From the NCBI GenBank assembly GCA_003022435.1, contig PXUA01000019.1, positions 1 through 64,000 of the forward strand: DNA of 64,000 nucleotides, given 5' to 3'. Below are positions 6,718-40,540 of the stretch, piece after piece. The DNA is from Bacteroidetes bacterium SW_9_63_38 (lineage in GTDB: Bacteria; Bacteroidota; Rhodothermia; Rhodothermales; Salinibacteraceae). The translations under genes were made by a program, and so were the position numbers. The first letter of the stretch is position 1. Each line of letters starts with the position of its first letter. Under the pieces are notes generated by a model. The model had not been told where the DNA came from. It saw only the letters and a list, made by a program, of their open reading frames with translations, and did not search any database.

Positions 6718-7607
6718 ATGGCTACTGCTGAATCCAGATCAACTTCTGCGTCGTCCGCGGACGGGTCCACCCTCCGCCTCCGCCGCAGCGACGAGCGCGG
6801 CTACGAGGACTTCGGATGGACGGACAACTGGATGCCCTTCTCGTTTGCCGACTACCGTGACCCGGACTGGATGCACTTCGGGCCGCTTCGCGTGATGGTG
6901 GAGAACCACATCCAGCCGCACGAGGGCTTTTCGGCCCACCCGCACCGCGACGTAGAGATCGTGACCTACGTGTCGTCCGGCGTGCTCACGCATGGGGACA
7001 ATACCGATCCGTGAGAACGTACGTAAACCATTTTCCGCCATAGCGGAGGACCGTGCACAGTCTCAGATAGAAGCGGAGTTTAGAAACTTGTTCACGTATC
7101 GGTAAGGGCCACGAGACGCACATCGGCGCGGGGGAGATGCAGCTCATCAGTGCCGGGAGTGCGGGCATGGTGCACTCGGAGGAAAACCCCCACGACGCTG
7201 TGGAGCACAACTATCAGATGTGGCTCGTGCCCGACCGGCCGGGGACCGACTCTGCCCACCACGAGCGCGGGTTTTCACCGGACGAGCGGCAGGGGCAGTT
7301 CCGGGGCTACGTGGCGCCGTACACCGACGCCGAGGCGGGCGACGGCGGCCCGATGCCGATCAATACCGACGCCTACATCTACGCCGGGCTCTTCGCGAAG
7401 GGGGACGCCGTGCAGCACGCGCTGGCGCCGGGGCGCGGGGCGTGGGTGCAGGTGGTGGAGGGCATGGTGGAGGGGGCTGGGGTCACGTTGCAGTCCGGGG
7501 ACGGGGCGGGCGTCACGAATGCGGACGAACTCCGGTTCGAGTTTGTCGCGGAGAGCGAGGTGCTGCTCTTCGACCTGCGGATGGATGCGGAGCGGCTGTG
7601 GATGTGA
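6718..7607 (+). pseudogene. Pirin family protein gene, disrupted by a 99-bp miniature element
   Basis: Two ORF pieces together make one pirin-type bicupin, possibly a quercetin 2,3-dioxygenase of the YhhW kind. The first piece (6718-7014) carries the metal-binding HPHRD and ends ...GVLTHGDNTDP-stop. The second resumes as GHETHIGAGEMQLISAG...HSEEN, the conserved continuation of the first cupin, and runs to 7607. The gap is exactly a 99-bp inverted-repeat element (7004-7102) flanked by TA. Removing the element and one TA fuses the pieces in frame through one Lys codon (GDN-K-GHETH), giving about 262 residues. As it stands the first cupin is truncated. A GTG or ATG restart could still give the second part alone, which lacks the HPHRD metal ligands. 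Confidence 0.93.
7004..7102. mobile_element. Miniature inverted-repeat element, family B copy 1 (in pirin)
   Basis: A 99-bp non-coding element with imperfect terminal inverted repeats. The left end reads CCGATCCGTGAGAACG; the right end, reversed, reads CCGATACGTGAACAAG. It is flanked on both sides by TA (7002-7003 and 7103-7104), the target duplication typical of IS630/Tc1-mariner type transposition (IS427-group IS5 elements also use TA). No transposase is encoded, so it would have been moved in trans. Related copies are at 26275-26409 and probably 41262-41365. Confidence 0.85.
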
Positions 7608-7732: not shown

Positions 7733-7888
7733 GGGCAATTCATGTTGGGAGACATCCGGGGGCGAAGGAGACAATTGTGCCGTTGATCGGCTCGATTGCC
7801 CGAACTGAGCGGAGGCACGGATGCATGGAAGCAGTCACGCCGTGCTCTCTTCCGCTCGTGTGTTCCGGAGAGCAAGGTGCGATTGCCC
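7733..7888. mobile_element. Miniature repeat, family C copy 1
   Basis: About 156 bp with terminal inverted repeats (left GGGCAATTCATGTTG; right, reversed, GGGCAATCGCACCTTG). The inside aligns along its whole length with copies at 19303 and 28453 (shared blocks gacatccgg, gagcgga, gcatgga, gtgctct). It occupies most of the 370-bp gap between the pirin remnant and the peptide transporter. The left part of the gap (7611-7640) holds an iterated gcgtgag word. No coding ORF and no clear target duplication were seen. Confidence 0.65.
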
Positions 7889-10262: not shown

Positions 10263-10382
10263 GCGGTCGAACGAGGCACATTGATTCGTGCGATGGAAGC
10301 CCGGCTGCCGGTTTCTTGCACTTGTGCCGGAATGTGTGTGGGCATGTGCGTGTGTGGGTGACGGATCTGGTTGCCTTCCTAA

Positions 10383-10479
10383 TGCAGCTTCAACTGGTCC
10401 GTTGTGCAATCGAGATCCCTCAAGCTGGAGCTTGGAGCAATAGCAAACTGCTTTCCCCAAAAGATCGTTTGAAGCTGCA
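10383..10479. mobile_element. Miniature inverted-repeat element, family A copy 1 (97 bp)
   Basis: Terminal inverted repeats TGCAGCTTCAA at both ends and a 4-bp duplication CTAA on each side (10379-10382 and 10480-10483). It lacks the internal palindrome found in the 120-bp copies (15573 and 16918), so it is an internal-deletion form. Non-coding. It sits in the 338-bp dut/ispE gap, next to a GT-rich run (10333-10362). The rest of the gap holds a partial family C word (cctccatgcctccacgc, 10571-10587) just before ispE. Confidence 0.85.
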
Positions 10480-10601
10480 CTAATAGGTCGAGGCATGATG
10501 CGATCGACGAGGGAGAGGGGGGCGCACACCGAATGGGAACGTACGACGAGGGCGTTTCTTGAGACAGTCCCTCCATGCCTCCACGCTTCCACGCCTTCAT
10601 T

Positions 10602-15433: not shown

Positions 15434-15572
15434 GGCGGCGTGGGGTGTGGGGCGAGAGGTGTGGGGCGACGCTTCGTGCTGACGTGTCGCCTTGAACGGA
15501 AATCCCCTGTGCTGTGATCGACCGTTCAGGATTCGGAGAAGAGGGCAGTTCTATTGTCCGCGACGCCTCTAG

Positions 15573-15692
15573 CGCAGCTTCAACTGGTCCGTTGTGCAAT
15601 CGAGCTTTGGACGGACCTCGTCCGTCCATACCTCAAGCTGGAGCTTGGAGCAATAGCAAACTGCTTTCCCCAAAAGATCGTTTGAAGCTGCA
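15573..15692. mobile_element. Miniature inverted-repeat element, family A copy 2 (120 bp)
   Basis: Ends cGCAGCTTCAA and, reversed, TGCAGCTTCAA. The duplication CTAG lies on both sides (15569-15572 and 15693-15696). An internal perfect palindrome (TGGACGGACCTCGTCCGTCCA type) is shared with copy 3 and absent from copy 1. Non-coding; it lies about 140 bp upstream of engB. Confidence 0.85.
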
Positions 15693-15711
15693 CTAGTCAA
15701 GCTCGATGTGC

Positions 15712-16817: not shown

Positions 16818-16917
16818 GCGATCGGAGGATTGATGCGTGACTCGGGATGCGTGAATTGTGAACAGGGACGGCGGACCGATCGGCCCGTCGGGGAATTCCC
16901 ATACGCTTGGTTCCCAG

Positions 16918-17037
16918 TGCAGCTTCAAACGATCTTTTGGGGAAAGCAGTTTGCTATTGCTCCAAGCTCCAGCTTGAGGGATGGACGGACGAGGTCCGTC
17001 CAAAGCTCGATTGCACAACGGACCAGTTGAAGCTGCA
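16918..17037. mobile_element. Miniature inverted-repeat element, family A copy 3 (120 bp, inverted)
   Basis: Same 120-bp element as copy 2 in the opposite orientation, with TGCAGCTTCAA ends and CCAG on both sides (16914-16917 and 17038-17041). The internal ggacggac/gtccgtcc palindrome is intact. It fills much of the 364-bp gap between sucD and gatA. The remainder (16825-16860) carries an iterated gcgtga word, and 17042-17181 shows nothing recognisable. Confidence 0.85.
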
Positions 17038-17181
17038 CCAGCCCCGAATTCGCCTATGATACTAGGACCCAGTCGCCGAAAGCGCAAAATTACAGCTGCG
17101 AAGATGCGGTGGTTTCCGGGGGGGGCGGCCGCGAGAACTCAGGCCTCCACAGGCTGAGCCGTCTCCGTCCCGCGAGCGCCT

Positions 17182-19302: not shown

Positions 19303-19458
19303 AGACGATTGCATGTTGGTAGACGTCCGGAGACGCAGGAAGCGATGTTGCCGCTGAATTTTCCCTCTGCCCGGAATGCGTGGACGCGTGGAGGCATGGA
19401 GGCAACAACGCTGTGCTCCTCCTCTCGCGTGTTCTGGAGAACAAGATGCGATTGCTGT
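19303..19458. mobile_element. Miniature repeat, family C copy 2
   Basis: About 156 bp, with ends gACGATTGCATGTTG and (reversed) AGCAATCGCATCTTG. The inside aligns closely with copy 3 (blocks gacgtccggagacg, ttgccgctgaat, tctgcccggaatg, gcgtggaggcatggaggcaa). It lies in the tatA/add gap. The rest of that gap (19171-19302) shows no feature beyond the divergent promoters it must contain. Confidence 0.7.
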
Positions 19459-26274: not shown

Positions 26275-26409
26275 CCCGATCCGTGAGAACGTACGTGAAC
26301 CATTTTCCCCGAGAGCTCGGAAATCCTAGATTGCTGGGAATCTCAGAGGCCGAGAATCTCAGATTCCCAAGACCGTGCACGGATCAGTACAAACGTATTC
26401 ACGAATCGG
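26275..26409. mobile_element. Miniature inverted-repeat element, family B copy 2 (135 bp)
   Basis: Ends CCGATCCGTGAGAACG and (reversed) CCGATTCGTGAATACG, as in the pirin copy. It shares inner blocks (accattttcc, gaccgtgcac). Its extra middle holds a perfect 9-bp stem, TGGGAATCT with AGATTCCCA. The right flank is TA but the left is TC, so no intact duplication. It lies between the zinc-ribbon gene and its terminator. Confidence 0.75.
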
Positions 26410-28452: not shown

Positions 28453-28612
28453 GGGCGATTGCATGTTGCAGACATCCGGAGACGTAGGAGGCGATTTTGC
28501 CGCTGAATTCCCCCTCTGCCCGGAATGAGCGGACGCGTGGAGGCATGGAGGCAATAATGCTGTGCTCCAACCCCCCTTCTGTGTTGCCGCGGAGGGCAAG
28601 ATGCGATTGCCG
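28453..28612. mobile_element. Miniature repeat, family C copy 3
   Basis: About 158 bp with the clearest ends of the family: GGCGATTGCATGTTG and (reversed) GGCAATCGCATCTTG. It lies in the divergent gap between the Usp gene and the plus-strand beta-sandwich gene. The remainder (28361-28452 and 28613-28793) has an AT-richer stretch just before 28794 that may hold the plus-strand promoter. Confidence 0.75.
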
Positions 28613-40324: not shown

Positions 40325-40540
40325 GGCAGTCGCGTGTTGGAAGGCTTCGGGAGAGCAGGAGGCACTTTTGCCGTTCATCAACTAGTCTGCCCGGAATGAA
40401 CGGACGCCTGGAGGTCTGGAAGCACGGACGCTGTGCACCACCGCTCTCCTGTGCTCATCATAGAGCAAGATGGGACTAGACCAGGGCGATTCAGGTCGGT
40501 AGCCTTCCGGGAACGTCGGAAGTGATCTTAGCGCTGATCG
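40325..40540. repeat. Family C copy 4 (degenerate) plus an adjoining partial copy
   Basis: From ggcagtcgcgtgttgg (40325) to gagcaagatggga (about 40476) the order of blocks is that of family C (gagagcagga, tctgcccggaatgaacgga, ctggaggtctgg, gctgtgc), but divergence is high. A second left end begins at 40483 (agggcgattcaggtcgg, gggaacgtcgg, gcgctgat). Together they fill much of the 775-bp gap between the MBL-fold gene and tadA. The rest (40002-40324, 40541-40777) shows no gene; an AT-rich patch is at 40262-40280. Confidence 0.5.

Follow-up and report, generated by a model that had tools for sequence, protein, structure and literature searches.

Insertion sequences of the IS630/Tc1-mariner kind, such as ISY100, duplicate a TA target. 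Among shorter bacterial repeats, the Correia or NEMIS elements of Neisseria occur in forms of about 107 and 155 bp that differ by an internal segment, have terminal inverted repeats (TIRs), a target-site duplication (TSD) and TA termini, and sometimes lie within genes; the RUP element of Streptococcus pneumoniae is 107 bp long and inserts at TA; and the ERIC, IRU and RU-1 repeats of enterobacteria combine TIRs and a TSD with TA at their termini (PMC2229807).

Here we analyse a short repeat that interrupts a pirin gene in Bacteroidetes bacterium SW_9_63_38, within a stretch of 64,000 nucleotides (hereafter the window) of a 2.84-Mb draft genome that is 84% complete. The 99 bp at positions 7004-7102 are almost certainly a non-autonomous transposable element (MITE) which carries a TA duplication and sits in a formerly intact pirin gene. 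The family to which it belongs appears to be undescribed but of a known kind, namely the TA-target bacterial MITE, and the open-access titles and abstracts searched contain no description of such repeats for Salinibacter or Salinivenus.

Results

A pirin gene interrupted at a TA dinucleotide

Both pirin domains are present at the locus, one in each half of the gene. The 5' part (6718-7003, forward strand) comprises 95 complete codons, matches the N-terminal domain PF02678 Pirin (E 4e-13), contains HPH, one half of the expected metal site, and leads into an in-frame TGA, and the 3' part (7105-7607, forward strand) carries the HSE half together with the C-terminal cupin, which Pfam identifies as PF17954 Pirin_C_2 on 7137-7604 (E 6e-22). 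Between them lies the element (7004-7102, forward strand), with one copy of the TA target on its left (7002-7003) and another on its right (7103-7104). The junctions read ...GGG GAC AA-TA-CCGATCCGTGAGAACG...CTTGTTCACGTATCGG-TA-AG GGC CAC..., and the wider locus is ATGGGGACAA-TA-(CCGATCCGTGAGAACG ... CTTGTTCACGTATCGG)-TA-AGGGCCAC. The two ends of the element form inverted repeats, CCGATCCGTGA on the left (7004-7014, forward strand) and CCGATACGTGA on the right (7092-7102, reverse strand), which agree at 10 of 11 positions at the ends and more weakly inward; a matching transposase would be flanked by TACCGATnCGTGA...TCACGnATCGGTA.

An earlier note on this DNA had claimed that a 99-bp element with TA on both sides and inverted-repeat ends interrupts a pirin gene, and that its excision restores the frame. 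The flanking TA and the inverted ends can be read directly from the sequence, and the frame obtained when 7105-7607 follows directly on 6718-7003 is 789 nt long, with 262 codons and a single terminal stop, across the junction GAC AAT AAG GGC CAC (protein ...LTHGDN-K-GHETHIGAGEMQ...), so that GDN is joined to the downstream segment via AAG. The deletion of 7004-7104 proposed in the note does restore the frame, but its 101 nt equal the element plus one TSD copy, the element itself being 7004-7102. With the insert kept, the pirin frame reaches a TGA three codons into the element and yields a product of 98 codons; neither half contains a second frame lesion.

These observations are consistent with a course of events in which a non-autonomous DNA transposon with imperfect inverted ends of about 11 bp, moved in trans and presumably by cut-and-paste, would have inserted into the TA of GAC AAT AAG in an intact pirin gene, duplicating the TA and adding 101 nt. 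The HPH and HSE motifs, which in pirins provide the metal ligands, lie 5' and 3' of the break respectively, and the insertion thus splits the active site. Given that the frame shifts and stops after 98 codons, and that the HxH half of the cupin metal site is thereby parted from the HSE half, the gene is predicted to be inactivated and to have lost its function here.

The empty site in relatives

Sixteen uninterrupted pirin homologues align without a gap across the excised junction. Seven are congeneric orthologues, 75-79% identical to this gene, and nine are further homologues, of which two are more distant copies in the genus and the remainder come from the same family and order. All seven orthologues read LTHGDDQGHE against LTHGDN-KGHE in this pirin, and the insert is absent from all 16 homologues (one genome per species compared). 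Since these homologues read through the site and the genome contains about 50 matches related to the insert, the insertion is not a matter of chance. The earlier note had also named what would speak against an insertion, and at the same sampling of one genome per species we found neither relatives with the same insertion nor an orthologue in which the 99 bp are native.

An artefact of assembly or binning, or a mixture of strains with the insertion in a minority, is highly improbable: the genome is a draft at 84% completeness and contigs of one congener do break at such repeats, but the junction is base-perfect and includes a TSD, no other copy has the sequence of this insert (the nearest is 85% identical), and the locus is 7 kb away from the end of a contig of 316 kb.

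The residues of the two halves bear on whether the gene has been released from constraint. The gene departs from the orthologues at 12 of 166 residues that are invariant in congeners (a leave-one-out control gives 0-5 of about 157), and at 1 of 85 residues that are invariant in all 16 homologues; these changes would fit lineage divergence and mild relaxation alike. They also enter into the question of whether the element could be tolerated, with a split enzyme made from both halves (by a restart at the ATG at 7137) or with ribosomes bypassing a 99-nt hairpin. Apart from the break, the frame is open in both halves and each retains its Pfam domain, only a single residue invariant in all homologues has changed, and the insert folds better than its shuffles (z -2.5). 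On the other hand, no matching take-off and landing codons for bypassing were seen on reading the sequence, the internal fold varies among copies, the copies are dispersed over unrelated sites, and the changes at congener-invariant residues exceed the control. We therefore regard a tolerated element as very unlikely and retain the reading of an inactivating MITE insertion.

As for the age of this insertion, the nearest copy in the same genome is 85% identical to the insert and most others are 70-83% identical, which means that the source copy is absent from the genome sequence and that there has been no fresh burst there. A fairly young insertion is nevertheless favoured by the lack of any other frame lesion in the pirin halves. 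The suggestion in the note that the family was recently mobile thus draws support from the gene but not from the copies, and recent mobility is plausible.

A dispersed family with conserved ends

Assignment of the insert to a repeat family, as foreseen in the note, was borne out by about 50 related matches in its own genome (51, split pieces of one copy included). The end motif TACCGATnCGTGARnAnG, by which both inverted repeats are also supported, has 27 matches on each of the two strands of this genome and none in the reversed control. Copies usually measure 95-100 bp, with longer forms of 112-330 bp and one of 680 bp (L057), the longest frame of which is 102 aa. TA was found on both sides in 33 of the 43 flank-checked copies, and on at least one side in all 43. 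Congener G010 has about 30 family matches, four others (G001, G007, G008 and G012) have a few each, and a single relative of about 150 bp comes from a genome in a different genus of the same bacterial family, while a class-wide scan of 245 genomes returned essentially no copies from the remainder of the class. The family has the defining traits of a bacterial MITE: it is short, lacks a transposase gene, has TIRs and a TSD, and occupies many unrelated sites.

A second copy in the window (26276-26409, forward strand) is 134 bp long, contains nested palindromic modules and is flanked by TC on the left and TA on the right. It sits directly after a terminator-like hairpin.

Across 35 aligned copies, CCGATnCGTGA is near-invariant at both element ends and a central GGACCG block is conserved along with them. 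Many copies have the same left/right difference at position 6, where a C on the left stands opposite an A from the right, an asymmetry more easily reconciled with distinct left and right sites for a transposase than with an RNA helix. The insert does fold better than shuffled sequence on either strand (z about -2.5), as a structured RNA or regulatory hairpin might, but in the 35 copies pairing is conserved in the terminal 9-bp stem only, with 2 compensated pairs, no Rfam family matches the insert, and a TA duplication together with insertion in mid-gene are signatures of a transposon. Because pairing is kept in the terminal repeats only, we read the element as a DNA transposon; the RNA alternative, scarcely credible on this evidence, was dropped in view of the blank Rfam result and the unconserved internal pairing.

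Target choice beyond TA

The family's choice of target reaches beyond the TA dinucleotide: on each side, G is favoured at -5 and a purine (A or G) at -4, a preference that is new here. Among 139 TA-flanked ends, position -5 is G in 63% and position -4 is A or G in 77%, each bias differing from the general TA sites of the window at a p of about 1e-14; these p-values are rough, given that nested copies share flanks and the ends are partly non-independent, but the effect is large. As both ends contribute, the preference is palindromic, roughly GRYnnTAnnRYC. The pirin target, GACAATAAGGGC, fits this consensus on its left side and partly on its right.

Search for the mobilising transposase

The note had proposed searching for a transposase with matching ends, either IS630/Tc1-like or of the IS427-type IS5 group, and no such transposase was found, as the DDE_3 and IS5-type loci examined do not carry the ends of the element. 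No IS630-type DDE_3 gene occurs in the insert's own genome (84% complete); such genes are present in 7 of 13 congeners, none of them flanked by element ends. Nor was parentage by IS5 (IS427 group) supported, the DDE_Tnp_1 loci of the insert's own genome (G000) and of G010 being without these ends; one example, the IS5-type locus L200, has GCTAGGTCGTACTGAC instead. Among the loci examined, ends paired 0.5-3.5 kb apart are apparently due to chance or to two separate short copies, the 680-bp L057 excepted, and L057 has paired ends but no long frame. In viral contigs the end motif matched singly, unaccompanied by a second end, except in one contig of the same length as a contig of G010, and new contigs gave no paired ends; plasmids gave no family match, and the class-wide scan of 245 genomes no autonomous partner. 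Such a partner usually accompanies a MITE, although the name does not depend on it.

The mobiliser is probably a TA-targeting DDE transposase of the IS630/Tc1-mariner kind, acting in trans. Since it is the TA target that points to the IS630/Tc1 type, we infer this assignment from that feature. Of the traits of the IS630/Tc1-mariner group, the TA target duplication is present, whereas ends in common with an IS630-type transposase gene were not found; accordingly, the family is filed as TA-targeting only and not as an IS630 derivative.

Other interrupted genes

Protein evidence is available for a few further insertions. In G010, one copy (L061) cleanly splits an SDR gene, the halves of which match PF00106 adh_short at profile positions 1-30 and 35-193. 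Likely but weaker cases are the insertions in the Ala_racemase_N-type gene of L034 and in the acyl-CoA thioesterase gene of L101, each with a Pfam match in one half only. Counting gene disruptions by an open frame after excision was uninformative alone, as high G+C gives long chance frames, and for this reason only disruption cases supported by Pfam are given.

Internal modules and other repeats

Nested within the longer copies are palindromic modules as well as other MITEs. In many of these copies, palindromic units such as GGGAATCTCAGATTCCC lie beside the GGACCG block, and one copy contains four 34-bp tandem units. Palindromic units of about 17 bp (the GGGAATCTnAGATTCCC type; GAATCTnAGATTC) seem to occupy one constant internal site in more than one subfamily and in other repeats of the genus. 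Palindromes of the form GAATCynrGATTC number 28 in the insert's own genome (26354-26366 and 27 more) against 0 in the reversed control; they are also found inside a sister MITE subfamily and other repeats, and 12 occur in congener G007. We tentatively raise the possibility of a modular family, in which the palindromes might be mobile or exchangeable and insertion would occur at the 12-bp palindromic GRYnnTAnnRYC and not at TA alone; alternatively, the modules may just have been inherited with the copies.

The surroundings contain further repeats. Another family resembling MITEs, bounded by CTAG and with GTGCAGCTTCAA as its inverted repeats, has three copies in the window (10379-10482, 15569-15694 and 16916-17041), and is also nested in the pirin-type MITE L038 and found beside the IS5-type transposase L200. 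Dispersed 99-nt repeats, 66-90% identical to their reference copy, lie at 7750-7848, just downstream of pirin, and at 19321-19419, 28470-28568 and 40341-40439.

An apparent burst of identical copies in G010 was set aside: these copies are nested in a larger repeat whose ends are of the CTAG type, and are thus no sign of activity of this element. About a dozen contig ends of this genome (L114-L125) carry a larger repeat ending in ...GTTGTGCAAGCCCACTAG, and the pirin-type MITE that it encloses is the same, or almost so, from one to the next; the repeat around the MITE, by contrast, has diverged, a pattern that may partly reflect assembly breaks.

Discussion

Our analysis fixes the exact ends, the target and the TSD of a MITE family that is largely confined to one halophile genus, and the pirin insertion shows that genes of this genus are broken by such elements. 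In other respects the locus is an ordinary insertional pseudogene, but it offers a clean natural empty-site comparison which could help to find the missing transposase.

Set against known systems, the family differs from IS630/Tc1-mariner insertion sequences in that its copies are without a transposase gene and the search turned up no IS630-type element that shares their ends. For RUP, IS630-Spn1 has been proposed as a partner insertion sequence with matching ends; none was found for the family here. Correia/NEMIS offers a parallel in its two size classes, comparable to the 95-100 bp copies and the longer forms with internal modules, but has another sequence and another host, and the modules described here are palindromic, variable in number and partly common to other repeat families. 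ERIC, IRU and RU-1 have a layout in common with our family and belong to a different clade. Overall, Correia/NEMIS, RUP, ERIC and the family interrupting this pirin gene follow a common plan of about 100-150 bp with inverted ends, a TSD and TA termini (PMC2229807).
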